From assembly GCA_021234155.1 (NCBI GenBank), contig JAJEKV010000003.1:15174386-15238385 (forward strand): a stretch of 64,000 bases of DNA. The letters are read 5' to 3'. Source of the DNA: Isoetes taiwanensis (taxonomy: Eukaryota; Streptophyta; Lycopodiopsida; Isoetales; Isoetaceae). Positions 29,328-61,490 of the stretch are shown piece after piece. A model generated the notes under the pieces. It was not told the DNA's origin. It did no database searches and worked only from the letters and a program-made list of their open reading frames with translations. How positions within the stretch are numbered: the first letter of the stretch is position 1; every line of letters starts with the position of its first letter. Both the position numbers and the translations under genes were made by a program.

Positions 29328-32287
29328 TAACCTGGCCTTAAATTTGGGGTTACTCCATCAGCTTGAGTCTTAATTTTGAACAACCATTTGTTCCCCACAA
29401 TATTTTTATCATTTGGTCTGTCTACCACTTCATAGGTATTTGTCCTGTTAAATGATTGCATTTCTTCTTGCATTGCTTTTACCCAGCTTTTACTATCAGG
29501 CGAGGATATTGCTTCATCATAGGTCTTTGGTACTGAATCATCTAAATGCATTAAAATTTCAAACAGTCCAAGTACCTCACCTTCTTGTTCCTTGAGTCTT
29601 TGGCTTTTGCCCAGGTGATCCCTTCCAAATGCTTCCAAGTTTTCTTTAGCTTCTCCTCTGAGTATCTCGGCTTCAGTTCTTTTCCTTCTCCTTATAACCT
29701 TGGGTTGACTTTCATCTTGCTGATCAGCTAGATCCCCTGGCTGCACATTTTCAAAATCCACATGGTTAGCATTAGTTGGCATCTTTTCTGGTTCAATATC
29801 TTCATCTTCATCACTGTCTGCTATAGTTGCAGGTTCAGCTTGCTCCTTTTGCAGATTTGTTACTTCAGTTGCTTGACATTTAGTCATCTGACCCTGATTA
29901 TTAATCTTAGGTAACACCTTATAATACTGCTCCTCATCAAACAGTACATCTCGGCTAATTATGATTTTCCTTTTGCTTGAATCATACAGCCTATAGGCCT
30001 TAGATTCTTGATCATAGCCAACCATGTAAGTTATATATGCTTTGTCATCAAGTTTCTTTCTCAGTTCATCAGGCACATGCACAAATGCCAAACACCCATA
30101 GGCTTTAAGCCTTTCATAATCTGGTACTTTGCCCGACCATAATGTTATAGGAATTTCACCTTTAATACTTATAGAAGGTACCATGTTTTGAACGTACACT
30201 GCTGTCTTAACTGCCTCTTCCCAGAGGAAATTTGGCAGCCCTGAGTATTTGAGCATGCTTCTTACTGCATTGAGAATTGTCCTATTTTTCCTTTCAGCAA
30301 TTCCATTTTGCTGAGGTGAAAATCTACATGTCAGCTGCCTTCTGATACCTTGCTCATTGCAATAACTCTTGAATTCATTTGACATGAACTCACCTCCCCT
30401 GTCTAATCTCAAGCATTTGATTTTTCTCCCTGTTTCAACCTGCACCTCATTTGCAAAAATTTTGAATGCCTCCAATGCTGAATCCTTTGTCCTTAAGCAG
30501 TACATCCTGGTCATCCTACTATAATCATCAATAAATGTCATGAAGTACCTCTTCCCTGAAAGACTGGTCACATTCAATGGCCCACACAAATCTGTGCGTA
30601 TCAAATCTAATTTATTCTTTGCCCTCTTTACTGATTTTTTGAAGGGCAGTTTGGTATGTTTTCCCAAAATACAGCCAATGCATTTGAACTTCTCATCATT
30701 TGCACCAGAACCTTTAATTAACCCTTTCTTCAACATGAGTTGCACAGTTCTGGAATTTACATGACACATCCTCTCATGCCATGTTTTTAAGTTGGTACAA
30801 GTTACAAGATTTATACTTGAAGCATATTGATTCAGATTTAATCCAAACAGGTTGCCAACCCTTTTACCAACAAACTTTAATATATTATTGAAGAACACTT
30901 TACATTGCAATCTCTCAAAGAGAACTTTATACCCGAGATCCACTAGCTGACATACTGAAATCAGATTTCTAACTAGGCCTGGTACACAAAGAACATTTTC
31001 TAGTTTGACAGCCTTCCCTTCAAGATCATAAAGTTCGAGCATTCCTGTGTCCTTGATTTCTTGCAAATCCCCATTCCCTAGTTGCACGTGCCCTCTTGCC
31101 ACCTTTTTGCAATCCTTAAGCAATTTTGAGGAAGATGTCACTGTCCTCTCAGCTCCTGAATCTATAATTATCATATCATGATCATTTGCATCATGCATTA
31201 AATGACATAATTTAGCATGGCTTACCTCAACATCTTCATTCTGCTCGTCCTCCTCACTTCGAGCTTCTTGAGTTAAATTCAAAGCTGGATTGTCTTTTGA
31301 ACTCCCCTTTCCCCTCTGAGCAAATGTTCCCTTGCCTCCCATGCCTCTGTTTTTCCCTTTTGCATTCTGCCCCCTTGGGCTGGGACAGCTTGAAGCAAAG
31401 TGCCCCTTGCCATCACAGTTATAGCATATAATCTCTTTTCCTGTCTTTGGACAATCTGCCTTCAAATGCCCATAGGCATTACAATTGTAACATGGTCCAA
31501 CCTTATCCCTGCTAGTCTTATTAAATACTTTTTTCTCTTTGTGTTTCCCTGCATAAAGGACTTCAGTGGTTGGATCATCCTCCTCTTGGCCCATCTGCCT
31601 CTGCTCGAACTCCGTTCTTATCATTTGTATGGCATGTTCTTTTGTTCTGGCTATATTTCTTAAGAGAGTTGCCAAATAAGCATTGTGAGAGACTGCTCTA
31701 GAAATAGCTAGCAGCTGATACTGCTCATTCAATATGACTCCAGCCCCCTCCAGGTCAGCTACAATGGAGTCAAATTTTTCTAAGAATTCAGTTATGTTGT
31801 CCTTGTCATGTAATTTTAACTTTCTCAACTGCTTCTCTAAAACATCTATCTGTGAAGATGTTTTAGCTTCATAGTTCTTAACCATGTAAGACCACATTTC
31901 CCTGGGGCTTAGCCCTCTGAGCTTAAGCTTAATAATAGGTCCCACTTTACAGCAGATGATGGCTTGAGCCTCCTTAATTTTAATCACTTCACTTGGCTGT
32001 ACCTTTGAGGTGACAGTTGGTTCTGCACTACCCTTCGCCACACTTGTTTCAGCACCTCCACCAGCAGTGGAATCCCCAGCACTAGAGCTTGAAGTAGCTC
32101 CCCCTGTGCTTGCTGACCCTGTACTAACATTGATGTCAGACTGCCTGCTAGCATTTGGATCAACCAAATACCACAGATTCTCAAACTCCAGGACTTTCTG
32201 GATACTTTGTTTCCAGACTTGGAAACCACTTTCCCCCTTGAACACTTCAATGGCATTGAGCAAATTTGCTCCAAAACGGCTAGACAT
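29327..32287 (-). CDS. Copia-B gag-protease-integrase polyprotein
   Basis: I take the start as the ATG at 32287 (MSSRFGANLLN), because the frame upstream runs through the PBS into the LTR. Order: gag core (AIEVFKGESGFQVWKQSIQK, WSYMVKNYEA), two CCHC knuckles (CYNCNAYGHLKADC about 31495-31450, CYNCDGKGHFASSC about 31430-31390), protease active site IIDSGAERTV (about 31175), integrase finger (WHERMCHVNSRT ... CIGCILGKH), core Asps in DLCGPL and FIDDYSR, catalytic Glu region GIAERKNRTI, and the start of RT to about 29350. A one-base deletion near 29347 ends the frame early with TAG. About 986 codons; otherwise complete. Confidence 0.92.
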   Translation of the reverse strand: MSSRFGANLLNAIEVFKGESGFQVWKQSIQKVLEFENLWYLVDPNASRQSDINVSTGSASTGGATSSSSAGDSTAGGGAETSVAKGSAEPTVTSKVQPSEVIKIKEAQAIICCKVGPIIKLKLRGLSPREMWSYMVKNYEAKTSSQIDVLEKQLRKLKLHDKDNITEFLEKFDSIVADLEGAGVILNEQYQLLAISRAVSHNAYLATLLRNIARTKEHAIQMIRTEFEQRQMGQEEDDPTTEVLYAGKHKEKKVFNKTSRDKVGPCYNCNAYGHLKADCPKTGKEIICYNCDGKGHFASSCPSPRGQNAKGKNRGMGGKGTFAQRGKGSSKDNPALNLTQEARSEEDEQNEDVEVSHAKLCHLMHDANDHDMIIIDSGAERTVTSSSKLLKDCKKVARGHVQLGNGDLQEIKDTGMLELYDLEGKAVKLENVLCVPGLVRNLISVCQLVDLGYKVLFERLQCKVFFNNILKFVGKRVGNLFGLNLNQYASSINLVTCTNLKTWHERMCHVNSRTVQLMLKKGLIKGSGANDEKFKCIGCILGKHTKLPFKKSVKRAKNKLDLIRTDLCGPLNVTSLSGKRYFMTFIDDYSRMTRMYCLRTKDSALEAFKIFANEVQVETGRKIKCLRLDRGGEFMSNEFKSYCNEQGIRRQLTCRFSPQQNGIAERKNRTILNAVRSMLKYSGLPNFLWEEAVKTAVYVQNMVPSISIKGEIPITLWSGKVPDYERLKAYGCLAFVHVPDELRKKLDDKAYITYMVGYDQESKAYRLYDSSKRKIIISRDVLFDEEQYYKVLPKINNQGQMTKCQATEVTNLQKEQAEPATIADSDEDEDIEPEKMPTNANHVDFENVQPGDLADQQDESQPKVIRRRKRTEAEILRGEAKENLEAFGRDHLGKSQRLKEQEGEVLGLFEILMHLDDSVPKTYDEAISSPDSKSWVKAMQEEMQSFNRTNTYEVVDRPNDKNIVGNKWLFKIKTQADGVTPNLRPG

Positions 32288-32310
32288 GATTGCTTTTCCT
32301 TGGATCTGTA

Positions 32311-32322
32311 GCTCTGATACCA
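32311..32322 (-). other. Copia-B primer-binding site (initiator Met tRNA)
   Basis: The minus strand reads TGGTATCAGAGC one base inside the 5' LTR, complementary to the 3' end of plant initiator tRNA-Met, the standard copia primer. Confidence 0.92.
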
Positions 32323-32323
32323 A

Positions 32324-33004
32324 TGAAGAAATCAAACAACAAGCACGTTAAATTTAAACATCTTCTATAGTCTATTCAAAGATAAAATTGCATAGACCAT
32401 AAGCAATACTTCATCATAGCAATGTCATAAATTTCCTTAACCTTCATCACTTCATCAAGTTCACAAGTCTTCAAGACTCAAATCATTCTCAATTTCATAT
32501 GTTAAGGTCATTAAACCAATAAACCAAATGATCATATAATAATATCTTCAAACCTTCGAACTGCTACAGTGTTTTTACTGTAGCCAAGGGATTGATCAAT
32601 TTTGACTACCTTCAAATCTTCAATTTGAATGATCGGATCTTCACCCCCTTAGCTCCTGCCTGCAATGCAAAAAACCGTCTAACTATCTATACTCCTTTTT
32701 CATTGTTATAGCACAGATCCGGCCGCTATGGCGGACCGATCGTGCCCCTTTGCATAAGCTTCCATTTCCGGCCAATTTAAAAAAGGCTTTCCCCCTTTAA
32801 ACGTTTTCGTGGCAATCTCCACTTAGGCTATTATCAATAATTTAACAGCTCGTAACCATTGAACTTGACCTTATGAGAATTCCATCATACCTTAGGTAAC
32901 CTTACATTTAACCTTGTAAATGAGTTCGTTGCTTCATGATTCTTTCAGATATGGTACCTGCATCTTCAAGATAATCCCATGATTATAACATGACCATTTC
33001 AACA
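32324..33004 (-). repeat. Copia-B 5' LTR
   Basis: 681 bp, same ends as 27288-27968. Drives transcription on the minus strand. Differences from the 3' LTR seen by eye are single bases near 32765, 32780, 32847 and 32933. Confidence 0.95.
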
Positions 33005-37286: not shown

Positions 37287-37750
37287 TCTCATAGGGTGAT
37301 TCCATGAGATTGTATATCGGAAGGCTACAATCACGCCATAGCATGTTTCAACCTATCTGCAAAGTGTGCACAGGAGGGGCAGATGGAGTGAACTACCCTA
37401 GCCATTGTTCTATGCCAGGCAACGTCATTTGATATCTCTGTCTATTGTTATCCGGAGGCCTTGACCGTCAGCTGACCCCCTAGAGCCTGAGCCCAGGGTA
37501 GAGCCATTATTTATGGTATATTGCTTATGTTATCTTGTCCTTGTATTGCTATTTATATCAAGATGGATGGATCACCTTCGTGGTGGTATATTATATATTA
37601 TATATATTGTGTATGATTGCTAGGTGCTAACACGTATGTACGCTTCCACTGTATAAGATTTCCATAGAGGACGTGGAACGAATGATATCTCTGTGTCCTT
37701 CAGCCGGACACTTGGCCATCCCAAATGGTCTGAGTTAGACGGAGGGTGGG
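37287..37750 (+). repeat. Diverged gypsy LTR relic related to the H3-element LTR
   Basis: Shares ordered blocks with 44890-45310 and 56420-56830: 'tctgcaaagtgtgcacagga', a 'tgttctatgcca' block, 'cgtggtggt', and a 'gtgtccttc' block. Similarity fades after about 37750. It represents the R/U5-side half of a related LTR. Confidence 0.65.
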
Positions 37751-40215: not shown

Positions 40216-43128
40216 AGATAAACGAGTTGAGAGAATATGTTTGCGGCAACAAGAAGTTGAATTTTTTTGGTGGATAATATCATCCACTATATTGTTATAC
40301 GGGAGCAGATTATAATTACATTAGACGAGAAGACTATACATGGAAAAACACATGTATTAGAGTTGTAGGTAGTGAAGATTGAACAATACGGTCAGCAAGC
40401 ATGAGCATAGCTATGTGGCTATGTCAAACAATCACATATGACTCTAGACTTAGGATTGGCTCACACATGTTACTATATCACATAATAACAAGGTAGCGGT
40501 TGTGGATGTTGGATGTATTTAGTAGTATCAAATACTACATTATTAAGGATATCAAGGATGTCGACTGTGACATTCAGATGTATGTCATATTGGAAGATAG
40601 TAGAATATTCACACAAGGCGAGTAAAATGTTACTTGACAAGATTTAAAGAATAAGCATAATGATATGCTTATATATGAAGAAATTGGGTTAGGTATGATC
40701 TACCAGAGATAAGTATTCAAGTTATCCCAATAGTTGGATTTGACTATCTTAGATACACCGTACTAAGGGATATAAAAAGAGTTTAAGTCAGGAAAAATAG
40801 CTAGAGTAAGTCTAGCATATACGGTGATGTTACATTCAAAAACATCCGGAGGATGGTTGGAATAGAATTGAAATAACAGATAATGGGAATTTGACTCAAG
40901 GTTGTAAATACCGATGAATTAAACCAACATTATAAGCTGAGAGTATCTATTGGGTTTTGGGATTAACAAGATGTACAAAATTCACGTCCAATAATGGAAG
41001 AAGAGAAGGACGGTGACTTTGCCAATTATACCTTTAGGGATAACTGACAAGAGGGCAATATATAGCAATTCCAAGTCCCAAGAAGTGTATAGAGTAGAAT
41101 GGGTGAGATTATATAGACCAATAGTCCATATATCATAAGAGTTACCCTACTCACGGGGAGCAATTCTAGACCCCGAAGTAGAGGCTGGAGGATCCCTTGC
41201 CTTGAGGTATACACCTCGTATGGAGTATGACTTTAAGACTCTTAAGGGGGTAAAGAGTTGGATAACCATATGGCGTTTACTAATGAAGGCTCGAACATAG
41301 AGGTTTTCTATTATGAGATTGAGGGTTTAATGCCTCTGTCTCATTATGAGGGGGCCAAAGACGACAACATTTAAAAACCAATCAAAAGTTGAAGTGTTGA
41401 CACGATAACTTAAAAAAGATAATTGTGACAAAACATGGTTGATATTGGGAACACAAAGGATATTTAGGTGAAGGAACCTTTAGAAAAGCTCTTCGACTAG
41501 GGTAGTGCCCTTTGTAATTATGGCATAATCCCGTGGAGAGGATCATAGTTTATGTATAGGATTGAAGTACTATAAGGCACTAAAGGAATGGTTGAAGTAT
41601 CTGGGGACCCTATCAAAATGTAGGTAGCATATATACAATTCCAACATAGAGTTGGCCACTGTTCATTTGGGAAGTCGGTGGCTCAGCCACATCATAAAGG
41701 CACATGGGAAATGGGTTTTGTTTCAAGGAACTACCAAGGTCACACTTTAGCTAAGTTAGAGCAGAGCTCTAGTATTGTGGGATGAGGACATATGCTTATT
41801 ATGTACGTACCGTATACACATACGATAAACATCTTGGTGAGGTAATCTATGTAGTGACTGTAACCCAAACTTATCGATGAAGGGTATGGAGTATGTATGG
41901 AATGTGCAGACAACAATCAATCCGTTGCATGTTAAGGTAGGATGTTGCAGTTGGCACTTGAAATAAATGTCAACGGGCAATAGAATAAAGCTCAAGATGA
42001 TGGGGTTGAATAGTACAATAGTACAATTCCAGGATGAATAGCGAATAGCAGTTACCTACTAGAAGCTTGAATATGTCTTGCATAGACACCGAAGACTAGA
42101 TCTCCCACACGATCCTTGCTTAGATCAGGCAGAGGTGAACTCCATGGGTTACAGGAGGTGTAAGTTAGAACATATAGGGCTCGAACATCGATACAAGCTG
42201 GGTAGCAGGAAAATAATCGCCCGGGTTATATCAGACGTAGGTATTTTAGGAATATTTCTAGGTAACTTACAATTCTTACGAAGGCTTACTCAGTAACTTA
42301 AGGCATTATTATAGCTTATATGAGGATGACAAGTCATTTGTAATGCCACAACAGCGGCATGACGTCATGACAAAAGAGCCCAATGACTAATATTTCTCGG
42401 GTGTATGACAACGTTGAAGCATAGCCCCCCAACGTATGGGTTAAAAGACATAAGGAAAAATCTAACGCATATCTGTAACCTCAGGACATAGACATTTATA
42501 TAATACAACATATAATAGTGGTTTAGAAGCCAACAAGAGGGTTAAAGAGTATCTGAAGGAGTAAAGGTTGGTGACCCTAAGGAATAAGGCTCACAATGAA
42601 AGGGTTAATTGGATATGTTGTGTTACGTGTACAGTCGATCAGTAATGTTGAAATTAATAAGCAACATGTTTCAAGGGTCGGGGTAACGAAAATCGACCAT
42701 GGACGTAGAAAACATATTAAAGAAGAAGATAAAGGACTACTATTCATTAGGTGTAGGCCGAGGGTGCTCTCTACCAACAGGCGAGGAGAGATGTCTATGT
42801 CGAAAGGTGGCAAGGGGTTTCAAAATCCTTCAAAGATTTAATACGTGGCTTAGGGGGAAAGAATTTCAATTTCTAGAACAACATGGTGGATTGAATTCAC
42901 CAAGAAGCTTTTTTAATAGGAGGCCCCTCGTGAGAGGTTCTTAAGTGGTACTATCCTTTGGGATATTCACATAATCCCTTGGAATATATGTAAGTTCATT
43001 TATGGAGCTTAATGATGCTTAGGCGCTAAAGTAATGGTTGGAAAACACTTTGCCCCAAGCATATCTAGATACCCTAGAAGGAGGTGACTAGTCAACAATG
43101 GTTGGATGCCATTGGACCGTTACGGTAG
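40216..43128. other. Long non-coding stretch with diverged repeats; no gene recognised
   Basis: About 2.9 kb of AT-rich sequence with no convincing coding frame. The block about 41470-41760 resembles 42940-43230 in order (see repeat entries), suggesting an old large retrotransposon-derived or tandem non-coding region. It is the continuation of 37751-38277 across LINE-2. Confidence 0.4.
41470..41760 (+). repeat. Diverged direct repeat unit 1
   Basis: Ordered matches with 42940-43230: 'cataatccc(g/t)tgga', 'ggc(a/g)ctaaag(g/t)aatggttg', and 'ggccac(t/c)gt'. Strongly diverged; seen by eye only. Confidence 0.4.
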
Positions 43129-43439
43129 AACAACTCCAAAAGAGGGTAGGCCACCGTCAATTTGACAGGCGTGTGGCGCAGACAAATAATCACGGCCATA
43201 TAGGCAGTGATGTTTGGCACAAAATAATACTAAAGTTTGTATTCTAGATAAATTAGATTAAAGTATTGACATTGTTGTGGGGGTTTTAACACAAACATGC
43301 ACTATGTGTTACAGAGTATGTATCGTGATCTGGGGGAGTGATCCATAAAAGGAACACGACCATTGAGAAGAAGCACGGAAGGGTGATAGGATTAGAGAAA
43401 TCCAAACCCATGGTCTAGAGGGGTGCTGCATGGCAGTCC
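42940..43439 (+). repeat. Diverged direct repeat unit 2, also matching 57072-57319
   Basis: Its left part resembles 41470-41760. Its right part (43129-43439) is nearly identical to 57070-57319 apart from two deletions there. It is probably the left LTR remnant of the outer gypsy whose 3' end follows the H3 element. Confidence 0.6.
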
Positions 43440-43784
43440 CTAGCCAGTTGGGCCCAAGAGAGATCCGCTCTCTGGGAAGTGAGACGAGTCAAAACTTGGA
43501 CACTAAAGAACATAGCGTTAGCTATGGTTGTCTCTATGAATTTTACTCAACCCCAGTATATAAAGTCAAGGCATAAGATAAAGTACATCAATGTAATATA
43601 GATTAAGTCATGGCAGGGCTGAAAGAAATTTTCTACTAAGGCATGTGCTAGGGGAAAAATATTTGAGCATCTATGCTGGAAATTTCGGTACTTCTAGTGG
43701 CTATATAATTTTGTATAACTTATAAATATAGCTTTATAATTACATAATAAGTAATTAACAGAAAGTTGATCTTTTCAATAAAGT
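43440..43784. other. Outer-element sequence left of the H3-element insertion
   Basis: Non-coding, AT-rich. It ends with AAAGT (43780-43784), the left copy of the target duplication of the H3 element. Confidence 0.5.
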
Positions 43785-45397
43785 TGTGACGTTCCAAGTA
43801 TTTATACGGTATAAGTATAAATATGTTGACACGTCACCAAGGATACATACGCCACATGGGGTATGGGAACCTAGGTGGTTCACTTAAAAGGAATTAATTG
43901 ACAATAATAACCTATAATTAAGGAACTAATATTTAAAAACCATAATTAAGCTAATTATGGTTTGGGAAGGCGCCACGTGGCCACCCTCGATTGGCTAGCA
44001 TGATAATGCTAATTGGGGTCAATAGGGTGGATCACCACCCCCATATCAGCCACAACTCACCTGGAGCAGTGGAGCGCCACCCTTGTGACCAGAGCTGAGC
44101 GCCACCTTGAGCAATTGGACGCCACCCTTCTTACACAAGTTGAACACCAAGATCAAGAAGATGGAGATCCCCAATGACAATGGGTCGAGCCGAAACACAG
44201 GTGGGTGGCTAGTGTAGTTGTGAATTCTAGGATAAGCGCCCCTGTTGGGCACCTGTTTGGGTTGTTGATCTATTCTCTTTGTGTTTACTCGTAGGAACTA
44301 ACCCTTGATTGTAAAGGTAGGTTCTCTCTATATATATTTCGATTCTGGTTCTGCTTGTAATGGATGGATTGGTGGTTGTTAGCCTAGGGTTACTCGAAAT
44401 GGGGATTAAGGGGGTAGAGACCTCTCGAGGCTATTTATTGTAGTATGCTCCTAGATAGAGCCCCAGTATTATCCCGCTAAATGCGGCCTGTGCACAAGAG
44501 CCCACCGGGTCATAGATGCTATGGTGCTTTGCTTAGCACCGCACAAGGAACACAAAGGGTGAAGTGGAGGTGGGGTCTTGCACGAACATAAAAGGCTCCT
44601 GGGACTCCTATAGCGAGCTAGACCTGATAGCCGGTCACGTAGAGGGCCGGGTATGGGTCTGACACTCCCTGGGTGGGAAGGTGTGACCCGTATGGGGCAC
44701 CTTGCACTTTGAGTAGATTTAGGGTGAGTAAGTCTGCACGGATGCGGGGGTCGGCCGATGCGCACGTATTCTCTAGCTTCGCCCATGGAGCCACCGTGAT
44801 TACGGAAGGGGACGCTTCCGACCTGCCTCATCGGACCGGGGCTTCATGAACCACCGGAGTAGGCTCAAAGGGGTGATGCCTCGAGCCCGCGTCTCCTGGC
44901 TATAGCGACGCCATAGCGTGAATTGACCCATCTGCAAAGTGTGCACAGGAGGGGCGGATGGAGTGGACAACCCTAGCCAATGTTCTATGCCAGCCAACGC
45001 CATGTCAAGATTCTGTCTGCTGATCTCTTGAGGCCTAGCCGTCAGTCGATCCTCACTGGAGTCTGAACCGGGGTAGAACCATGGGTTTGGGGTGTTTTCT
45101 TAGGTTTAGATGCATATTCTTTGCCGTTGGTATTTGGATGGATATGCCACCCTTCGTGGTGGTTATTTATATGTGATTTATGCTGTGTGCTAACCCTTGT
45201 ATTCACGCTTCCGCGACGTAGGAGCCCCATTGAAGGCGTGGGCCGAATGACCCCTTCGTGTCCTTCTTTTCGGGCATCGTTATTATAGATGGCCCGAAAT
45301 AGGCGGAGGAGCCCGCTCATGGCGAGTTGGTCGCCATGGGAGGGAAAGTCCCGTGATGTATACGTCCGAGGGTCGTATATGTTCAGGGAGCGTCACA
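43785..45397 (+). repeat. H3-element 5' LTR
   Basis: 1613 bp, TGTGACGTTCC to AGCGTCACA. A TATA-like cluster (tataagtataaatatg) lies about 30 bp from the start. Matches 55304-56918 along its whole length with many small differences, several of them CG in one copy and TG in the other. Confidence 0.93.
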
Positions 45398-45398
45398 G

Positions 45399-45410
45399 TG
45401 GTATCAGAGC
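45399..45410 (+). other. H3-element primer-binding site (initiator Met tRNA)
   Basis: TGGTATCAGAGC lies one base after the LTR, complementary to the 3' end of plant initiator tRNA-Met, as usual in chromoviruses. Confidence 0.92.
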
Positions 45411-45580
45411 ATGGTTCTGGGAAGCCAAACTATTGCACTGCCCACATACTAACTCGTTAGATCGTTAGCTAGTGTGTGAGGATTTTTGGGTAGTATGAGA
45501 TTTGGGGTGGTGTAGTAGATGTCGTCATGATTGCTTTAACGTGGTTTAAGAGTAAATAAGAGGTGAGTACCCGGTGCCAA

Positions 45581-45770
45581 ACCCTAACCCTAAGTGGCGG
45601 GCAGGGGGTACCCGGGTGTCGCTGGCGACCGTAGAAACCTCGGGGTAAGGGGTGCCCGCCACCTCGTGTAAAAAAAAAAAAAAAACCCTGACCCTAAGTG
45701 GCGGGCAGGGGGTACCCGGACGCCGCTGGCGCCCGTGGCGATGTCGAGGTAGGGGGTGCCCGCCACCTCG
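45581..45770 (+). repeat. Two tandem 86-bp units, each able to form a hairpin
   Basis: Units 45581-45666 and 45685-45770 begin ACCCT(A/G)ACCCTAAG and end CCGCCACCTCG. Each has complementary ends (GTGGCGGGCA near the start, TGCCCGCCAC near the end), so each could fold into a long hairpin. They are separated by an oligo(A) run. They lie in the leader between PBS and the H3 ORF. Confidence 0.85.
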
Positions 45771-45994: not shown

Positions 45995-47350
45995 ATGGAG
46001 ACACCCAAGCAAGTGTATAAGCGCAAACCTCGTCATTCTCAAACCCCTATAGAGTTCTTAATGGCTGAGTTGCTGCCACAACAAAACCCCGTGCGGGCGA
46101 CGCACAAGCAAAAAAACAAGAAATACCGAATATTTCGTGGAAGCGCTTCTAATGGGGGTCAAATACCATACCCGCTCTTTTGCTATAATGAGCGTTTTGT
46201 ATTTAAGCTCAACGCCATTCGGGAGACCTGCATGATAGTTGAACAGGAAGATGGCGTCCAGAAGTATGCCCCATTCTTCCCGCCAGCAGGGGATGAACAA
46301 GCTGAGGAGGAGGCCCTACAAACGCAGGCCCAAAACAGTTTGCAAATGGCCCAAGAGGCGGACCTACAGTGGCTAGCATCGGATGATCCGGCTTCGGGAT
46401 ACCGCTACCTGGGAAACGGCATGTGCCTCTTTGATGGGGGAGCCTACACTCTCCCATCGTTTTCATATGAAGAGGAGACCAACCGTATCCTCTGGGAAGC
46501 GGGATCACCCTCGTATTTCACAGATCACTTTCAGCGGACTGTTGAGCGAGATATGCAAGCTAATCCCCCACGTTACTTCATAGAGCTTACAAGAAGAACG
46601 GAGATCAGAATAGCCAAAGAGAAGCAAGCAGAGGAGCAAGCCACACTCCGGGCGCAAGCACAGAAGGCAACACAGTTGACGGAGGAGGCTGCCAAGCTTC
46701 GTGAGGATACTATCCATCAGCAGCAGGTAGAACAAGAGCAAAATCTGAAGAGAATGCAGGACGAAGCAGAGCAGAGAGCAAGAGAGGCAACCGAAGCCGT
46801 GAAGGAGCGGCTGAGGAAGGAAGAGGAAGAAAGGCATCGGCAAGAGCAACCACCTGCAGAAGTCCGTGTTCCTCGCCGAAGACAAAAGAAGACACCCCAA
46901 AGATCTGGTGCTCAGTATAAGGATCAGCTTAGGGCTCGAGGAGGAATCGCTAAGGCTGCAGGGGATAACCGGCGGGACAACATCATCCGTAAAGCCCGGC
47001 ATCCCGGAACAGCAGGGAAGACTCTACCCGGAGCTGCACCCCAACCTAGGAGGAGGCATCGTTACAAGCCTGGTACCGTGGCACTTCGAGAGATAAGGAA
47101 GTACCAGAAATCCACTGAGTTTCTGTTACGAAAACTTCCTTTCCAGCGTCTGGTCCGAGAGATTGCCCAAGAATTTAAGACGGACCTTCGTTTTCAAACT
47201 CATGCCATTCTAGCACTTCAGGAGGCGGCCGAGGCTTACTTGGTGGCCCTCTTTGGCGATGCAAACCTATGTGCCATCCATGCCAAGCGAGTAACCATCA
47301 TGACAAAAGACCTACAGTTGGCACGCCGGATCCGTGGGGAACGGTCATAA
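45995..47350 (+). CDS. Histone H3-fold fusion protein carried by a retrotransposon (451 aa)
   Basis: Clean frame with ATG in good context (aaggATGgag). Residues 1-200: no recognised domain. About 200-286: charged Glu/Gln/Lys/Arg/Ala-rich, predicted long coiled coil. About 290-357: very basic, Arg/Lys-rich tail. 358-451: histone H3 fold from [18 protein letters not shown] to ARRIRGERS, co-linear with canonical H3 residues 42-135 without gaps. Canonical loop 1 length and retained [25 protein letters not shown] and RRIRGER argue for replication-type or H3.3-like ancestry, not CENH3. Differences from plant H3 include E59-L60 to EF, G102A, E105G, T107A, P121T, A135S. The H3 tail with K4, K9 and K27 is absent. 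H3-H3' interface residues (C110, H113, R116, D123 by H3 numbering) are kept, so pairing with H4 is plausible. Function is unknown; it might tether the element to chromatin. Confidence 0.93.
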
Positions 47351-47586: not shown

Positions 47587-48024
47587 GTGATGGACTACGC
47601 TGGCCGACTAGCATGGTATATGGGAGGCGAGCAATGGGACCCCCAGGTTCCTTACCCTCTCTTGGATTATATGTTGCAGAGTTCAGTCGACCTCATCGAC
47701 AATATGCGCGCCCACCCTGACTATGCGACCTTTGTAGAGTTCTATGATGAGGAAATATTGCCTGAGGCGGAATTCTTTGGGGAACCGCCCCAACCTTATC
47801 TTCACAGAGATATTGTGGAGCATATGTTGGGAGATGATCGCCACAGCTATGACATCCTCAAGGGCATCATCAGACGTGCTAAGCACGCTCCCATTATCGA
47901 TTGTGGCTCTAGTGGGCTATACTTTGAAGCCCAGTTTGCCCTTGCTCTTATTATGGACAGGTATGTTGATGGTACTGACACCGCTTTAGAGCAAGCTAAG
48001 GCCCCACTTCCTCCGGATCCGTGA
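47587..48024 (+). CDS. Unrecognised acidic 145-aa ORF downstream of the H3 fusion
   Basis: Not recognised. Frame begins MDYAGRLAWYMGGEQWD and ends APLPPDP. Composition is acidic and aromatic-rich, predicted globular. It is preceded by a polypyrimidine stretch ending in CAG (about 47547-47588) that resembles a 3' splice site, so it may be an exon of a spliced transcript, joined to what follows or to upstream leader. The intervening 47351-47586 is AT-rich and resembles a 3' UTR. Co-inherited with the H3 ORF inside the same LTRs. Confidence 0.5.
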   Translation: MMDYAGRLAWYMGGEQWDPQVPYPLLDYMLQSSVDLIDNMRAHPDYATFVEFYDEEILPEAEFFGEPPQPYLHRDIVEHMLGDDRHSYDILKGIIRRAKHAPIIDCGSSGLYFEAQFALALIMDRYVDGTDTALEQAKAPLPPDP

Positions 48025-49200
48025 GGAGGACGAAAGGATAAACTTTTGCTGATTTTGTACGATGGAAGGAGTTAGCTAAAGAGAGGCCTTTACCTCGTAG
48101 TAAGGGCCAAGCACTTGTGGGATTGAGTTAAGCTTGCTACCATCAAGGTTGGGGATCAGGATTACTTGCTGAGGCGACATTCAATGGGCGATCGCATATC
48201 ACCAATAAGGGTAAGCAGAGGACCGCTCACCTTCTCTATGAGCTGGCGAATATTGTCAGGGTCAGCATGATTTCATTGATTACTCTCGCCCCAATTATGC
48301 GCCAGAGATACATCAGCTGCTCAACTATCAACCTCTTGATGTTGAGCCTATCAAAGACACTCTTGTCTTTGCGCGATTAATGATTCGTGGTACCCCATCT
48401 TCGCCTCGAATCGGCTTTCCGTGCTACGGGCCACATGTGCCCAACATCAACGACGCCGTCGTCAAAGCCGGGAGGACGACCCAACCATGGAGGATTTATG
48501 TAATGAGAGTCGGTATGCTCGGGAGGAGAAGGATTTTGCCATGGAGGAGGAGCTGCCTTAACTTGGAGTCCGAGTTGGCCTCTTCAACCCATCCGATGGT
48601 TCGGGGTTGAAATGCCATATTACTGATTCTTCCCGTCGGCTTTTACAAGCGCATGTGTTCTCTTCTTTGCTAAGGCAATTGCCCCCGGGCGCAGGCGGCT
48701 GTATGGGCATTAAGGGCACTTTCCACCACAGCCGGCCACAAGAAGTTAGCTCCTAACCTTGAGCAGATCATCCTAGTGAACCGTGATCTTGCCATTGCAG
48801 TGTTTGACCATGAGATTGGTTCTTGGATGAACATGAGTCTGCTGGTTGCGGCGCCATTGGCTACAAATGTTCCTCCGTAGATAGCTTCATCACCGTTGCC
48901 TCATCGGTTAATCCTAGCGTGCTACTCCTACAGCATCGACCAGAGCCCCAGTTTAATACTCAAGCACAAGATGTTGAAGGATCGACCTCTTAGTTTTAGG
49001 TTTCATTGGGTCATCGTATGAAATTTTATTAATCTTGATTGGCATTACCTCTAGTGGGCCAACACTAAAATCTATGTACTGTTTCAATTTTATATATATT
49101 CAGGATAACTTCTTATGTTCCTTGCACTGTTGAAAACCATTGAATTGTCTTCTCCTTTTAATGATTAATTATCTTCCTTAAAGTTGGAGTAGAAGGAAAT
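48025..49200 (+). pseudogene. Decayed continuation of unknown ORF region
   Basis: Short open pieces in alternating frames (for example HDFIDYSRPNYAPEIHQLLN near 48270-48330, INDAVVKAG near 48450, LAPNLEQIILVNRDLAIAVF near 48750-48810) suggest a once longer coding region broken by indels. No family recognised. From about 49010 the sequence becomes AT-rich and non-coding, ending near another splice-acceptor-like tract (about 49220-49240). Confidence 0.35.
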
Positions 49201-49283
49201 TGTTCAATGTATATATAATTATTCCTGTCGTCTTGCAGAAGAAACACTCGCGGAGTAACGAAGATAGGATAATATCCTAGATA

Positions 49284-49661
49284 AGGAGAGATGAACAGGG
49301 ACCTCCTGAACAGGACTATGGGGAACGATACAACGAGTATCCTGAACGGGAAGTTGACGATGAGATAGCGGAGCTTAGGGTGCCGGAACAACCTTATGAT
49401 CCTGACAAGGGCATGGAAGTAGTTACTCTTCTTCGAGAACGTGCTTACGATGATCCGAAATGGACTCTTTCCGTGCTTTGGGATTATTGGAATATGACCC
49501 CACATCAAGCTTTTGAGGATGCTAATGATCATCTCTCGGCAAATCTTCACGACCTTTGCGAAGGCTCTTCAACCTTCCGATTATTAGCCCCACTTGGGAT
49601 TATCAACCCGTTATTATTCGTGCTTGGGCACGCATACAAGCTCGTCGAGCCGCGGGCGTGA
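49284..49661 (+). CDS. Unrecognised ORF piece upstream of gag
   Basis: An in-frame run from about 49284 to the stop at 49661 encodes an acidic N-terminal part (DYGERYNEYPEREVDDEIAE) followed by a helical region (MEVVTLLRERAYDDPKWTLS, VLWDYWNMTPHQAF). Preceded at about 49220-49240 by a pyrimidine-rich tract ending in CAG, again like a splice acceptor. An overlapping frame (49556-49807, RAWARIQARRAAGVRVCAYA) may be its continuation after a frameshift. No family recognised. Confidence 0.35.
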   Translation, partial: RRDEQGPPEQDYGERYNEYPEREVDDEIAELRVPEQPYDPDKGMEVVTLLRERAYDDPKWTLSVLWDYWNMTPHQAFEDANDHLSANLHDLCEGSSTFRLLAPLGIINPLLFVLGHAYKLVEPRA

Positions 49662-49807
49662 GAGTGTGCGCTTATGCCGCCATGTATCCCTACGCAAAAC
49701 CCTTAAGCCGCAATTTCCAGTTTTGTGTGTTCCTATGCTTCACTATGGCTAGGAAATGGCCTCAGATCAGAGGCCTCTTTATGTATTATATAACTATAAG
49801 TTTATAA

Positions 49808-50049: not shown

Positions 50050-51200
50050 TTGATGCTGATGAAAAAGACGGTTAGGCTAATTACAGGGCCCTACGTCTTG
50101 CATGCTAACCCACCACAGCAGGTACAACAGGATGCACCGGAGTTACCTCCGTTCTTTCCTAGTCCACTGAGTCCACCAAATGGGCCCCCACCACGAACCA
50201 GTCCCGTGCAGGTGCGAAAGAGGTCCCACTCTAAACGCCGACGGAGCTCCTCTAGAGACAAAGGCCACCTCCTCAAAGTCGCCGCCGGTTTCGTCATCCA
50301 ATCATCCGCATCATCCGTGGCCATGCAAAGCCGAGATAAGAGTACCGCAAGACGGTTGATCTGACCATAACTAGTATATGGAAGAATAGGAAATTGGCCC
50401 AGTTTGATGGGAAATCTAGAGGCGGCTTGAATGCCGAATCATGGCTGGACGAAATGAAGGAGTTCGGCAGGTCCTATGGCATGACAGAGAAGGATACAGG
50501 AAAGGTTGCCACCACAAACCTTACCGGAGCTGCCCGTATTTGGTGGAAGGGTTATGCCGAGCCAAACATCCGGGCGAGGAGTAGATGCAACTTCGAGAAA
50601 GTTTGCCAAGGCCTTCAAATCGCATTATGTGCCTGCGTGCACATAAATGCCAACAGATCCGAACTTTCTACAAAGTTGGAGCGAAAGAGTATGTCCGTCT
50701 GTGCTTACGGATGAGTTTATGCTTTGAGAGACCGTATGTACCGGTATGAATGAGAAAAGGCGTTGGAGGGCTATATTGAGGGTTTGGCACCATCGATCAA
50801 ACGGATGGTTAAGGCCATCGACCCGAAATCAGTTGCAGAAGCCGAGGCTAAAGCATTGAGCCTCGAGGAGGACATACCAAGGAATCAGTATCCGCGTCCT
50901 GCTCCTTACTCGCAGCCACGGTACCGGCCCACACCTTTACAAACCCCGCCTCAAAGTCCGGGGCCCTCTCGGAGAACTCTTACGGTCGCCGCCAGAGAAG
51001 AAAGTCGCTTTTAGCACGCCCGATAAGCAGAACAATGCTGGTAAGGAAGTTCGAAACCTCTTACAGTCCATTCCTAAAGAGGCCAGAGAACAGCTGCGCC
51101 GGGATAAGGCATGTTACAGGTGTATGAGGCCTGGACACTTCATGCGTAAATTGCCCATATGTTACCTAGGATCGCCTACCGCCATGGCCGACCTTGATCG
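50050..51200 (+). pseudogene. H3-element gag (chromovirus type)
   Basis: A Pro/Ser/Arg-rich start (about 50100-50300) leads into the gag core: FDGKSRGGLNAESWLDEMKE, GAARIWWKGYAEPN (about 50530-50570), and YIEGLAPSIKRMVKAIDPKS near 50772-50830. A degraded zinc knuckle CYRCMRPGHFMRKLPIC is encoded near 51113-51163, where the last Cys spacing is disturbed. Frames change near 50370, 50715 and 51014, so no intact Gag is made. Gag would form the particle core. Confidence 0.75.
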
Positions 51201-51839: not shown

Positions 51840-52585
51840 CATGAATTTAGCGATCTTTTCCCAGACGAGATCCAGAAGCTTCTTCCTTTTAGAGGGGTAG
51901 AATGTGAGATAGCTTTAGAGCCAGACACTAAGCAAGGCCCCGTACCGTATGAGTCCCCCAGAGTTGGCAGAGCTTAAGAAGCAACTTCAAGAGCTACTAA
52001 ACCTAGGTTTTATTCGACCTAGCGTTTCGCCCTTTGGTGCCCCTATTCTTTTTGTAAAGAAAAAGGACGGCTCCTTGAGAATGTGTATTGATTATCGGCA
52101 ACTCAACAAGCATACCATCAAAAATCGCTATGCTTTGCCGAGAGCAGATGATCTAATGGATCAGTTGCAAGGGGCCAAATATTTTTCAAAGATTGACCTT
52201 CGCTCGGGATATCATCAGATAAGGATTAAAGAGGAGGACATCCATAAATCTGCTTTTCGCACTAGATATGGCCATTATGAGTTTACCGTTATGCCTTTCG
52301 GATTAACTAATGCCCCAGCAACGTTTATGCGGTTAATGAACGATGTTTTCCGACAATACTTGGATGATTTTGTTGTCATTTTCTTTGACGACATTCTCAT
52401 CTACAGTAAGACTCTAGAAGAGCATGAGAAACATCTTAAATTGGCCCTACAAAAGTTAAGACGCCATCAGCTTTTGCCAAGTTCTCTAAGTGCAAGTTTG
52501 CCACTCCAAAGGTTGACTATTTGGGCCATATCATTTCTGGCAGAGGGAATTGCTACAGATCCAAAGAAAAATAGAGGCCCGTAAG
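51840..52585 (+). pseudogene. H3-element reverse transcriptase
   Basis: The upstream part reads EFSDLFPDEI and [10 protein letters not shown]. After a frame change at about 51947 comes [60 protein letters not shown], the catalytic-side [35 protein letters not shown], and the catalytic [11 protein letters not shown]. This block is continuous over 211 codons with catalytic Asps retained. The C-terminal portion shifts frame near 52470. Confidence 0.88.
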
Positions 52586-53160
52586 GGAATGGCCTATTCC
52601 GAAAAAATGTCTCCAGGTCCCAAGTTTCTTGGGGCTAGCGAGGATATTACCAAAATTTGTAAAGGATTTTGCAAAGATTGCAGTCCCTCTTACAAATCTG
52701 ACCAAGCATGAGAAGGTAAAGGATTGGATGGAGCAATCGGAAGACTAAGGTTCAAATAAGTTTCCAACAGCTTAAAGATGCCTTAACCTCAAAGACCCGT
52801 TCTCACGTTGTCCGATCCCCGGATAAGGATAAACTAGTGGCCACAGATGCGGTCAATTGCCACCGGTGGAGTCCCCGATGCAAGAAGGGAGGGTTGTTGC
52901 CTATGATTCAAAGAAGATGAACGAGACCTTAACAAATGATATCCTACCCATGATCGAGTTGTTAGTCGTTGTTCACGCCTTGCGAATATGGAGACACTAC
53001 CTCCTTGGGAGAAGATTCCAGTTGGACACGGATCACCAAAGTCTCCGTTATTTATCCACCCAACCGAACCTCAACCTCCGTCAGAGGAGATGGATGGAAT
53101 TTCTTGAAGAATATGATTTTGACATCATGTATAAGCCCGAAAGCACAACGGGTTAAGGAT
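52586..53160 (+). pseudogene. H3-element RNase H
   Basis: Recognisable from VVAYDSKKMNETLTNDILPM (about 52890-52950), ELLVVVHALRIWRHYLLGRR and LDTDHQSLRYLSTQPNLNLR, ending DFDIMYKPESTTG before a stop near 53154. The first part of the domain is scrambled by frameshifts. Confidence 0.8.
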
Positions 53161-54429: not shown

Positions 54430-54750
54430 AAGCAAAGACACCCTGATCCGTAGGAGGTTTTGGAAACCCCAACCCTCCCCGAAATGACAGAGGAGCATCT
54501 AGAGATAGTACACAAGCTCTTCTTGATCGAAGCTTATAAACAGACCAGGAGGACTCAAATGCTACAATACTTGGTCAAGTGGAAACACTTGCCAGTGGAG
54601 GATGCTACGTGGGTGATGCAAACAGATCTTGAGAAGCACTACCCGGATTTCATGCGCGAATCTCAAGGCCGCACTATCAACGATGCTATCAACCCCGCTC
54701 CCGGCGGTAAGCTTGAAGACTTGATTCGCCGAGAATCAGTAGAGGGGTAG
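54430..54750 (+). pseudogene. H3-element integrase C-terminal chromodomain
   Basis: After the integrase tail (VHEVFHVSLLKQ-like, near 54400-54440) the frame reads LPEMTEEHLEIVHKLFLIEA, RTQMLQYLVKWKHLPVEDAT, W, then DLEKHYPDF. The 'YLVKWKHLPVEDATW' block is the core of a chromovirus chromodomain, which in this family directs insertion by binding modified histone H3 tails. The 97-codon frame from 54460 is open. Being a chromodomain element makes the histone H3 ORF in the same element more notable. Confidence 0.85.
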
Positions 54751-55290: not shown

Positions 55291-55303
55291 AAGGAGGGGA
55301 GAA
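55291..55303 (+). other. H3-element polypurine tract
   Basis: A 13-base purine run (aaggaggggagaa) directly against the TG of the 3' LTR. Confidence 0.92.
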
Positions 55304-56918
55304 TGTGACGTTCCAAGTATTTATACAGTATAAGTATAAATATGTTGACACGTCACCAAGGATACATACGCCACATGGGGTATGGGAACCTAGGTGGTTC
55401 ACTTAAAAGGAATTAAATTAGATTGACAATAATAACCTATAATTAAGGAACTAATATTTAAAAACCATAATTAAGCTAATTATGGTTTGGGAAGGCGCCA
55501 CGTGGCCACCCTCGATTGGCTAGCATGATAATGCTAATTGGGGGCAATAGGGTGGATCACCACCCCATATCAGCCACAACTCACCGGAGCGGTTGGAGCC
55601 ACCCTTGTGACCGTAGAAGCAGCCACCTTGAGCAATTGGACGCCACCCTTCTTACACAAGTTGAACACCAAGATCAAGAAGATGGAGATCCCCAATGACA
55701 ATGGGTCGAAATTAAAACACAAGTGGGTGGCTAGTGTAGTTGTGAATTCTAGGATAAGCGCCCTGCTGGGCACCCGCTTTGGGTTGTTGATCTATTCTCT
55801 TTGTGTTTACTCGTAGGAACTAACCCTTGATTGTAAAGGTAGGTTCTCTCTATATATATTTCGATTCTGGTTCTGCTTGTAATGGATGGATTGGTGGTTG
55901 TTAGCCTAGGGTTACTCTGGAAATGGGGATTAAGGGGTAGAGACCTCTGAGGCTATTTATTGTAGTATGCTCCTAGATAGAGCCCCTCGTATTATCCCGC
56001 TAAATGCGCCTGTGCACAAGAGCCCACCGTCATAGATGCTATGGTGGCCGGGCTTAGCACCGCATAAGGAACACAATGGTGAAGTGGAGGTGGGGTCTTG
56101 CACGAACATAAAAGGCTCCCTGGACTCCTATAGCGAGCTAGACCTGATAGCGGTCACGTCACGAGGGGGCCGGTATGGGTCCGACACTCCCTGGTGGGAA
56201 GGTGTGACCCGTATGGGGCACCTTGCACTTTGAGTAGATTTAGGGTGAGTAAGTCTGCACGGATGCGGGGTCGCCGATGCGCACGTATTCTCTAGCTCGC
56301 CCATGGAGCCACCGTGATTCTCGAAGGGGACGCTTCCCCGACCGCCTCATCGGACCGGGCTTCATGAACCCCGGAGTAGGCTCAGCAGGTGGTGATGCCT
56401 CGAGCCCGTCTCCTCCTAAGGCTATAGCGACGCCATAGCGTGAATTGACCCATCCGCAAGTGTGTGCACATGAGAGGGCGGATGGAGGGACAACCCTAGC
56501 CAATGTTCTATGCCAGCCAACGCCATGTCAAGATTCCGTCTCACGATCTCTTGAGGCCTAGCCGCCGGTCGATCCTCACCGAGTCCGAAACCCGGTAGAA
56601 CCATGGGTTTGGGGTGTTTTCTTAGGTTTAGATGCATATTCTTTGCCGTTGGTATTTGGATGGATATGCCACCCTTCGTGGTGGTTATTTATATGTGATT
56701 TATGCTGTGTGCTAACCCTTGTATTCACGCTTCCGCGACGTAGGAGCCCCATTGAAGGCGTGGGCCGAATGACCCCTTCGTGTCCTTCTTTCGGGCATCG
56801 TATTATAGATGGCCCGAAATAGACGGAGGGCCCTGCTCATGGCGAGTTGGTCGCCATGGGAGGGGAAAGTCCCCGTATGTATACGTCCGAGGGTCGTATA
56901 TGTTCAGGGAGCGTCACA
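55304..56918 (+). repeat. H3-element 3' LTR
   Basis: 1615 bp, same ends and internal order as 43785-45397, followed by the right copy of the AAAGT duplication. Confidence 0.93.
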
Positions 56919-57021
56919 AAAGTTAGGTTCCTATATTCTTGTTGTGAGCTTTTGCAGGGCTATTGTAGGTTCGTCACCTTAGCGTAATGTTGAGGACAAC
57001 ATTATGCTAAGGGGGGGAGAA
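56919..57021 (+). mobile_element. Outer gypsy 3' end: stem-loop and polypurine tract
   Basis: Begins with the AAAGT duplication of the H3 element. The stem-loop at 56986-57003 (AATGTTG agga CAACATT, extendable to about 13 pairs with one G-T) is followed by the polypurine tract aagggggggagaa at 57009-57021. The layout matches the 3' end of the H3 element, so the outer element belongs to the same group. Confidence 0.8.
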
Positions 57022-57319
57022 TGTAACGTTCCCCTGAAATATACGCTATAAATATGTATATTTCAGGGGAACAACTCCAAAAGAGGGTAGGCCACCGTCA
57101 ATTTGACAGGCGTGTGGCGCAGACAAATAATCACGGCCATATAGGCAGTGATGTTTGGCACAAAATAATACTAAAGTTTGTACTCTAGATAAATTAGAGT
57201 AAAGTATTGACATTGTTGTGGGGGTTTTAACACAAACATGTATCGTGATCTGGGGGAGTGATGATAGGATTAGAGAAATCCAAATCCATGGCCTAGAGGG
57301 GTGCTGCATGGCAGTCCCT
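57022..57319 (+). repeat. Outer gypsy 3' LTR, truncated and rearranged
   Basis: Starts TGTAACGTTCC right after the polypurine tract. From 57070 it matches 43129-43439 closely but lacks two internal segments, each bounded by short microhomologies. A 17-bp perfect inverted repeat occupies 57028-57044 and 57056-57072. The match ends at 57319 without a clear LTR terminus. Confidence 0.65.
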
Positions 57320-60116: not shown

Positions 60117-61490
60117 TTGGACATGTTTGCTCTTGCAGGATTATGGTCTGATAGCATGGCAAAATTGGTTGATGTAGTTGTGGCTATTCTTCAAAACAAT
60201 GTTATGCTTTTCTTCAATTTTTTCAATTTCATGGTGAATACAATGGAATTACAAAGTGAAGAGATCAAAAAAATGAAAGGAGAAATGGAATCCATGGCTT
60301 TGGCATCATTTTTAATTTCCCATTGGCTTTTAGGAAGTTTGGCAAGCGCAGGGAGAGATTTTTGGGTCTTCCCTCGGCAATCAACATTCAATGAGGTAAT
60401 TGAAACGCGCTCTTGGCATTTTAATCCCACTGTTCGTGATAGAAAGTGGCTTGAGTTCTACCGGATGGACTATGCTTCATTTGAGAGGCTTGTTGACTTG
60501 ATCTCCCCTTACTTGATTGTTCCTAGTAGAAAGGTGAGAGAACCATTAAGTGTTAGGACAGCGTTGAAGATCGTTTTGTATAGATTGGGGGATGGCATGA
60601 GCCCCAGAAAGATGAGGGATTTGTTTCAGGTTGGAAGATCAACGATTGAGAAGTACACGGATATCATATGTGAGATTTTGTCCAACAGCAGCAAGCTTTT
60701 GAGGGTGTTTATTCAAATTCCGAGAGGGGAAGAGTTGCAAAGAGTGATCCACGAGTTTGAGGAATTGTGTGGCCTTCCTAATTGTTGTGGAGCTGTTGAT
60801 GGGACTTACATAAGACTGAAATACAAACCAGGGAAAATGTATGACACCACTGCCTACAGGAACAGGAAACAATTTAGCTCCTTATTATTACAAGGCATGT
60901 GCGATGCCAACAAGATGTTTATGGATGTATGCTGCTTGTTTCCAGGAGGTGTCCATGATTCTACACAATTTGCAAAGTCATCGTTGTACAGGAAACTCAA
61001 GCATAAGATTGAGTGCAACTTGCCGATACTAAAGTTACCATGTGATAACTTCCAACAAGATAATAGGAGTGTGAGAGAAATTGATATACGACCTTATGTG
61101 CTTGGTGATAGAGCATATTCATCCCGTGATTTTTGTATGAAAATCTTTAATAAGCCCACGAATGCTCTTATGACTCAGTTTGATAGGCGTATAAAGCAAG
61201 GCCGAGTTGTGATTGAAAATACGTTTGGAATCTTGAAGGGGAAATTTCAAATTTTGGACAATTTAAGATGCCAGAAAATAGAGAAGACAAGTAGGATCAT
61301 CATTGCGTGTTGTGCACTTCACAACTTCTGTCGGATGATGAAGCTTGGATTGCCTTTGAATGAACCAAGACCGTTGGAAGATGTGCCACCTCATTTGGTT
61401 GAATGGGATGATAGAAAACTTACAAGAGAGGGGCAGGTGATTCGAAGTGCTATATTTCAGAGGTGGCTAGCGGAAAGAATCTCCGAATGA
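60117..61490 (+). CDS. PIF/Harbinger-type (HARBI1/ALP1-like) DDE transposase, intact frame
   Basis: 457-codon frame without stops. Helix-turn-helix-like segment at about 161-183 (SPRKMRDLFQVGRSTIEKYT). Catalytic core of the DDE_Tnp_4 type: Asp228 in GAVDGTYIRLK, Asp331 in VLGDRAYSSRDF, Glu367 in VVIENTFGILKGKF, plus CCLFPGGVHDS and the C-terminal ALHNFCRMM. All three acidic residues are present. The first 13 codons may not be translated: a splice-acceptor-like tctTGCAG at about 60133-60139 precedes an in-frame ATG at 60156 (MAKLVDVVVAIL). It catalyses excision and integration at TA-rich trinucleotides, or may be a domesticated ALP1-like chromatin protein. No terminal inverted repeats identified. 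Confidence 0.88.
   Translation: MDMFALAGLWSDSMAKLVDVVVAILQNNVMLFFNFFNFMVNTMELQSEEIKKMKGEMESMALASFLISHWLLGSLASAGRDFWVFPRQSTFNEVIETRSWHFNPTVRDRKWLEFYRMDYASFERLVDLISPYLIVPSRKVREPLSVRTALKIVLYRLGDGMSPRKMRDLFQVGRSTIEKYTDIICEILSNSSKLLRVFIQIPRGEELQRVIHEFEELCGLPNCCGAVDGTYIRLKYKPGKMYDTTAYRNRKQFSSLLLQGMCDANKMFMDVCCLFPGGVHDSTQFAKSSLYRKLKHKIECNLPILKLPCDNFQQDNRSVREIDIRPYVLGDRAYSSRDFCMKIFNKPTNALMTQFDRRIKQGRVVIENTFGILKGKFQILDNLRCQKIEKTSRIIIACCALHNFCRMMKLGLPLNEPRPLEDVPPHLVEWDDRKLTREGQVIRSAIFQRWLAERISE

Follow-up and report, generated by a model that had tools for sequence, protein, structure and literature searches.

A retrotransposon family of Isoetes taiwanensis carries a histone H3 fold under strong purifying selection

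Introduction

Silencing of retrotransposons by their hosts works largely via marks on histone H3. According to the accessible parts of two reports, fungal hAT DNA transposons can themselves carry H3, as with H3L of Pyrenophora tritici-repentis (PMC3538342) and a hAT with a captured H3 in Pseudocercospora fijiensis and five more genomes (PMC6710886); like the element described here, these are mobile elements with an H3-like gene, present in tens to hundreds of copies. Among viruses, single histones such as bracovirus H4 and the H3s of giant viruses are, in the available portion of one paper, parasite-encoded folds 73–89% identical to those of the host, often with an extended N-terminus as in our ORF1, and nudivirus Orf1 likewise joins an N-terminal part of no assigned kind to C-terminal histone folds (PMC9145170). 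A Ty3/Gypsy element of orchids offers a further parallel, as far as the excerpt of that report goes, in that an extra ORF encodes a host-like AlkB-like RNA demethylase retained through rounds of replication (PMC9289625). With plant chromoviruses the element shares LTRs, a tRNA-type primer binding site (PBS), the order gag-PR-RT-RH-IN and a C-terminal chromodomain.

The initial annotation of the locus knew of no described retrotransposon that encodes a histone. This stands among the matches listed in open-access PMC papers, none of which is a retrotransposon with a histone ORF, and has to be narrowed for transposable elements at large, the hAT DNA transposons with H3 having been published, as the consulted parts of those papers show (PMC3538342, PMC6710886). 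The papers on the I. sinensis and I. taiwanensis genomes use the word 'histone' 0 times in their main text, so far as it was available.

Results

The element in the window

The window, a stretch of 64,000 nucleotides of I. taiwanensis DNA, contains ORF1 within a chromodomain Ty3/Gypsy LTR retrotransposon, as judged by its LTRs, PBS, target duplication and domain order. Its features are listed below; the window copy belongs to subfamily A of the family.

43785..45397, + strand: 5' LTR, 1613 bp, TGTGACG...CGTCACA, with target duplication AAAGT before it (43780-43784)
45399..45410, + strand: primer binding site TGGTATCAGAGC; ten of 20 further A copies have the exact 12-mer
45561..45568, + strand: weak leader match to a splice donor, AGGTGAGT, found unchanged in 3 of 20 other copies
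45995..47350, + strand: ORF1, 451 aa, with N-domain about 1-190, helix 191-283, linker about 290-354 and fold about 355-451
47590..48990, + strand: ORF2 remnant, broken in the window copy; no relative found
49194..49702, + strand: ORF3 remnant, broken in the window copy
50394..50714, + strand: gag fragment, Retrotrans_gag E 0.0018, below the Pfam cut-off here and strong in other copies
51949..52584, + strand: reverse transcriptase fragment, RVT_1 6.3e-34
52857..53156, + strand: RNase H fragment, RT_RNaseH 4.8e-19
54460..54750, + strand: chromodomain at the integrase C-terminus, Chromo 5e-9
55291..55303, + strand: polypurine tract AAGGAGGGGAGAA, adjoining the 3' LTR
55304..56918, + strand: 3' LTR, 1615 bp, with target duplication AAAGT after it (56919-56923)

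We take the PBS TGGTATCAGAGC to be of the initiator tRNA-Met type. The matching LTRs and perfect target duplications reported at the outset are confirmed, the LTR pair being 93.7% identical and AAAGT exact on both sides. Across four pairs, LTRs differ at 4.2–5.6% of sites; these differences cluster, with small indels, and the assembly is nanopore-based, so that no insertion date is drawn from them. The assembly comprises, in the part of its description that was available, 1658.30 Mb in 204 scaffolds and 909 contigs from polished nanopore reads (PMC8566536), and the breaks that split ORF2, ORF3 and gag-pol of the window copy into short frames may therefore partly be sequencing error. ORF1 itself has no internal stop in its 451 codons, and the ORFs for gag, reverse transcriptase, RNase H and chromodomain downstream of it place this uninterrupted frame between PBS and gag, as the initial annotation had it.

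Other repeats were seen around and within the element. A direct repeat of 314 bp (43128-43441 and 57069-57319, 79% identical with gaps) lies on both sides, about 0.15–0.65 kb outside the LTRs, which may mean that a small, older unit of LTR or repeat type was the insertion site of the element. Positions 37333-37701, which may be what remains of an old solo LTR, are 70% identical to part of the element's LTR, and in the leader, 5' of ORF1, a G-rich unit stands as two tandem copies at 45579-45770 (88 nt, 86% identical). Judged by eye, the window also holds Copia-like long gag-pol frames of 1002 and 266 aa, recognised from their translation (28527-32335, minus strand), and an ORF of 457 aa with the look of a Harbinger-type DDE transposase (60117-61490).

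Domain structure of ORF1

ORF1 consists, in order, of an orphan N-domain, a long helix (coiled coil), a basic linker and a C-terminal H3 fold. Pfam Histone (PF00125) matches residues 341-447 with E 1.5e-36, and the solved structures nearest to the C-terminus are H3; the top solved-structure match by sequence, the H3.3 chain 7ux9_E, runs without gaps over H3 37-135, in keeping with the gapless H3 alignment originally noted. An AF2 model made without an alignment is usable for the long helix 191-283 alone, pLDDT in the H3 fold being about 42–67.

The N-domain appears to be without a convincing known relative in the protein database, Pfam or the solved structures. Neither residues 1-340 nor their 16-row alignment had a protein-database relative at E ≤ 0.01, the viral contigs searched held no relative, and a solved-structure profile search with the N-region gave nothing below 0.25. 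Weak Pfam matches in parts of 16 N-region members, to DUF5960 in four (best 0.00029) and to AAA_19 and ART-PolyVal in one each, were distrusted as an identity.

Copies and subfamilies

The species' own genome (1,658,258,908 bases in 1110 contigs) was searched with the 451-aa ORF1, for which 94 of 14,804 first-look candidates were scored, and with a typed plant H3.3, for which 150 of 9,103 were scored. ORF1 matched at least 94 distinct loci (99 matches). The first 15 matches of H3.3 were full-length, host-like and 97–99% identical (four of them were read), and the remaining 135 were 72–87% identical; ten of these 135 coincide with loci of the ORF1 query, and 23 further loci read among them comprise 18 of subfamily B, two of C, one of D and two of A. 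Both queries combined, at least 219 distinct loci on 94 contigs match the fusion or its H3, the window locus included, a figure that counts matching loci, with LTR context examined for a minority.

The genome does hold other LTR-bounded copies of the same fusion, which the initial annotation had proposed to look for: four further copies (three A, one B) have LTRs on both sides. In the 5 kb upstream, leader sequence precedes ORF1 in 20 of 20 A copies (partial in L032 and split by an insertion in L024) and LTR sequence is present in 19 of 20, while the 10 kb downstream contains an LTR in three of three. Exact 5-bp target duplications flank L002 (GGAAA) and L009 (GTAGC); the 5' LTR of L007 is incomplete and its start not placeable. 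A single host gene or an assembly join is ruled out by the at least 219 loci together with the LTR context of other copies, and a chance fusion by that number of loci in one genome.

The loci read fall into subfamilies A, B and C plus one D. The H3 folds of the other subfamilies are about 85–92% identical to the window's, and N-domain identity of A to B and C is 28–31% (28–30% in three B copies, 31% in one C), with 19 invariant columns in ten aligned A, B and C rows, one of them partial. Subfamily B has the same layout as A, with an ORF1 of 409–420 aa (seven copies); by tblastn, five B copies are 42–45% identical to the window's ORF1 over residues 53-450, fold included, and two more are 42% identical over 64-450 and 42% over 53-449. 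For residues 54-349, identity is 34–36% in subfamily C; a piece of 67 residues from D gives 36%.

The B copy L079 has an LTR pair 95.3% identical, a PBS and flanks that match over 6 bp; its RT-RNase H stretch is missing and its integrase end is frameshifted. Compared with A, it is 75% identical in ORF3, 87% in gag and the start of pol, 98% in the first part of integrase and 45% in ORF2. Against the 87–98% of gag, pol and integrase, the A-B divergence of ORF1 and ORF2 greatly exceeds that of the rest, and the two proteins may work together or may both have moved as a cassette. A subfamily B copy at L095:2494-4647 is a deletion derivative that retains ORF1–ORF3: its gag and early pol lead straight into integrase, with RT-RNase H missing.

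Between ORF1 and gag lie ORF2 (about 470 aa) and ORF3 (about 150 aa), each open in two of the three other A copies examined. ORF2 is open from an ATG for 465 and 469 codons (L062, L063), whereas ORF3, with no obvious ATG, spans, from stop to stop, 152 (L061) and 171 (L063) codons and is interrupted by stops in L007. In L063, gag-pol is open for 1207 codons; a single frame encodes capsid, RVP, RT, RNase H and H2C2, and rve and Chromo (4e-8) come next, the remainder of integrase together with the chromodomain lying in an overlapping frame. The element's gag is an ordinary Ty3-type capsid with a zinc knuckle. A pyrimidine-rich stretch ending in CAG stands directly 5' of the ORF2 ATG in three of four copies (those with the start located), and the ORFs may be expressed by splicing, with the candidate leader donor exact in 3 of 20 other copies. 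ORF2 has no protein-database relative at E ≤ 0.01, and a low-confidence model of a 68-residue ORF2 piece from the window contains one helix and three strands. The by-eye idea of an H2A-like fold in ORF2 and an H2B-like fold in ORF3 was unsupported by BLAST, Pfam and hhalign against typed H2A, H2B, H4 and H3.

Selection on ORF1

Among the 41 A copies read were 34 of nearly full length, of which 16 had no stops and entered the analysis; the other 18, which have stops, and seven partial copies were dropped. Summed over the 120 pairs of these 16 copies, ORF1 has a pN/pS of 0.181, a choice of stop-free copies favouring younger ones and divergence between lineages predating that choice. By part, pN/pS is 0.25 in residues 1-100, 0.13 in 101-210, 0.28 in 211-300, 0.22 in 301-347 and 0.060 in the fold (348-451, the same 16 copies and 120 pairs). 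Seven B copies give 0.048 in the fold and 0.20 before it, and comparison of the fold between A and B gives pS 0.91 and pN 0.08. For the pair L007/L009, dN/dS is 0.097 in ORF1, 0.023 in its fold, 0.106 in ORF2, 0.081 in gag, 0.076 in pol and 0.094 in the integrase part, so that the constraint on ORF1 is about that on gag and pol, and is stronger in its fold; in ORF3 it is 0.066 (L002/L009), with silent sites saturated.

These values, far below 1 in the A copies, the B copies and L007/L009, bear out a departure from neutral dN/dS across copies, on which the initial annotation had made its proposal depend. Purifying selection on ORF1 and its H3 fold is strong, and since the H3 part has hardly changed during the spread of the copies, the element apparently employs its own histone.

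Origin and residues of the H3 fold

The tree of the H3 fold holds 54 sequences (50 element, four host), 14 of 68 having been dropped for stops, gaps or partial length. One branch splits the 50 element H3s from the four host H3s with support 100/99, and the subfamilies group at 97/96 (A), 98/97 (B) and 93/88 (C, two rows), which upholds the descent of the ORF1 fold from H3 as first read. One capture of a host H3 behind all element H3s is supported by this grouping, though not proved, as the tree is unrooted and has just four host genes. Where the typed plant H3 has D77, all four host H3s and 38 of the 50 element H3s have E, which suggests capture in this host lineage. By tblastn, the element fold is 83–89% identical to four host canonical-type H3s (pieces of 97–115 residues, mainly fold) and 77% where the gapped linker is included. 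Identity with CENH3 was rejected on the 83–89% to canonical-type H3s, with no CENP-A in the best 60 of 179 structure matches.

S86T, V89I, G102A, E105G, T107A and I124L occur almost throughout A, B and C; the single D row, on a long branch, is without V89I and E105G. At each DNA-contact position of the set considered, as known from the nucleosome structure, the residue is conserved in no fewer than 48 of 50 element rows (49 of 49 at T45), and at each H3-H3' position in no fewer than 49, so that more than mere H4 binding appears to be selected. H87 and L90 are, we take it, the plant H3.3 residues. L90 is present in all 50 element rows and all four host H3s read, and position 87 is H in A (29/29) and C (2/2), F in B (18/18) and L in D. 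The chaperone-choice segment 86-90 mostly reads THAIL or TFAIL in the element as against S[HST]AVL in the host, and two single viral H3s, thought to be nucleosomal, read TAIL at 87-90 in the available portion of that paper (PMC9145170). The overall residue pattern fits a protein that would wrap DNA with H4 but be altered in its delivery or placement.

The N-terminus of H3 reads MARTKQTARKS. The initial annotation had this tail replaced, a statement to be qualified: no whole tail is recognisable, and short tail-like motifs are present, without statistical support. In the linker these are TARKSG (5 of 29 copies), TPRKSG and TPQRSG in A and VARKSG in several B copies; the protein itself starts with MARTKG in two C copies and with MANTK, MAITK, MAHTK or MANIK in B. 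The best of 29 copies in a comparison of linker and H3 tail was equalled by 59 of 1000 shuffles, and none of 16 exceeded the shuffles in a joint tail-motif test, so that descent of the linker from the H3 tail is unsupported and is retained as a lead. The idea that the element's own chromodomain reads the ARKS-like site is weak: the lysine of that site is R in several A copies, and the chromodomain, by eye against HP1, appears to lack part of the aromatic cage.

Discussion

The use that the element may make of its H3 is best approached through the reading we favour, namely that a captured host H3 of the L90 type, kept by selection, works as an element-specific H3.3-like variant on element DNA (probability roughly 0.45). 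A chromodomain Ty3/Gypsy family would have captured this H3 as the C-terminus of its first ORF, with the orphan domain and coiled coil placed in stead of the modifiable tail. The element H3 would pair with host H4, and H3-H4 tetrasomes or nucleosomes would form on element cDNA or new insertions; such chromatin would be without the tail on which silencing marks are normally set, and it would label element DNA for recognition by the other proteins of the element. The role we favour is to mark the element's own DNA or protect it from silencing, and function as a real H3 variant is what we infer from the sequences. An element-made H3 variant is argued for by the fold pN/pS in A (0.060) and B (0.048) together with the kept DNA-contact and H3-H3' residues, by the altered segment at 86, 87 and 89 (HAIL/FAIL), whose AIL recurs in two viral H3s, and by the position of ORF1 as the element's first ORF, separate from gag-pol. 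Against it, the large N-part could hinder nucleosome assembly, many copies have decayed (18 with stops and seven partial among 41 A copies), and the modelled fold has a low AF2 pLDDT, about 42–67. The present results would fit marking of its own DNA, packaging and tethering alike.

Under packaging, ORF1 would act as a nucleoprotein and, together with host H4 and perhaps H2A-H2B, cover the cDNA within Gag particles or next to them. We consider this unlikely: the conserved DNA-contact residues, a constraint on ORF1 equal to that on gag and the precedent of viral histones, as given in part of the source (PMC9145170), all suit it, but an ordinary capsid gag with a zinc knuckle is already present, and host H4 would be needed in cytoplasmic particles. 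It is also possible, if rather improbable, that the fold enters chromatin at H3.3 sites or binds chaperones with the N-part and coiled coil as the anchor for the integration complex, steering integration beside or instead of the chromodomain. The long helix 191-283 of the AF2 model, the chromodomain on the integrase, and a changed chaperone-choice segment in which all 50 rows retain L90 would agree with such a tether, as would the A-B divergence of ORF1 and ORF2 far beyond that of gag-pol, which leaves room for joint action of both proteins.

The tail-like motifs admit a more specific possibility, which we regard as quite doubtful, that an insertion divided the tail of an H3 to give ORF1, which builds a private, silencing-escaping chromatin on element DNA only. 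The MARTK-like start would then be followed by some 300 foreign residues before the ARKS motif resumes ahead of the fold; changed chaperone and helix-2 surfaces would confine its nucleosomes to element DNA, and this chromatin would be read by the element's own proteins. The same H3-tail-site-like linker motifs in some copies, again without statistical support, could point to a decoy that merely sequesters histone chaperones, H4 or silencing enzymes and is never DNA-bound; this is very unlikely, the DNA-contact residues being conserved equally to the H3-H3' residues. That the captured piece is a functionless passenger is scarcely credible, for although stops in 18 of 41 A copies, these near full length, and the inactivated hAT-amplified H3 copies of P. 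fijiensis, as seen in part of that report (PMC6710886), would suit it, neutrality is contradicted for the family by fold pN/pS of 0.05–0.06, the A-B fold values (pS 0.91, pN 0.08) and dN/dS.

If the favoured reading of an element-specific H3 variant is true, an element family with a selected H3 acts on the very substrate of silencing. The family would be a source of natural H3 variants with a replaced tail, and whether a retroelement builds its own chromatin, a question open outside DNA viruses, becomes testable.

In comparison with known systems, the fungal hAT-H3 elements are, in the parts of the reports available, DNA transposons with terminal inverted repeats, whereas the present element has LTRs and gag-pol, which excludes hAT-H3 transduplication as its identity. 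By the same excerpts, hAT-H3 copies are near-identical in one case and RIP-inactivated in the other, while here diverged subfamilies are under purifying selection, and, unlike the fungal genes, the H3 forms one protein with an orphan domain and a coiled coil. Nudivirus Orf1 differs in carrying an H4-H3-like doublet of 30–40% identity, and viral histones, as far as the available portion of that paper goes, belong to DNA viruses or their derivatives rather than to an LTR retrotransposon (PMC9145170). The AlkB element of orchids, from the excerpt available, carries another domain, and the Isoetes family has three extra ORFs before gag. It is these, ORF1–ORF3 5' of gag, that set the family apart from plant chromoviruses.
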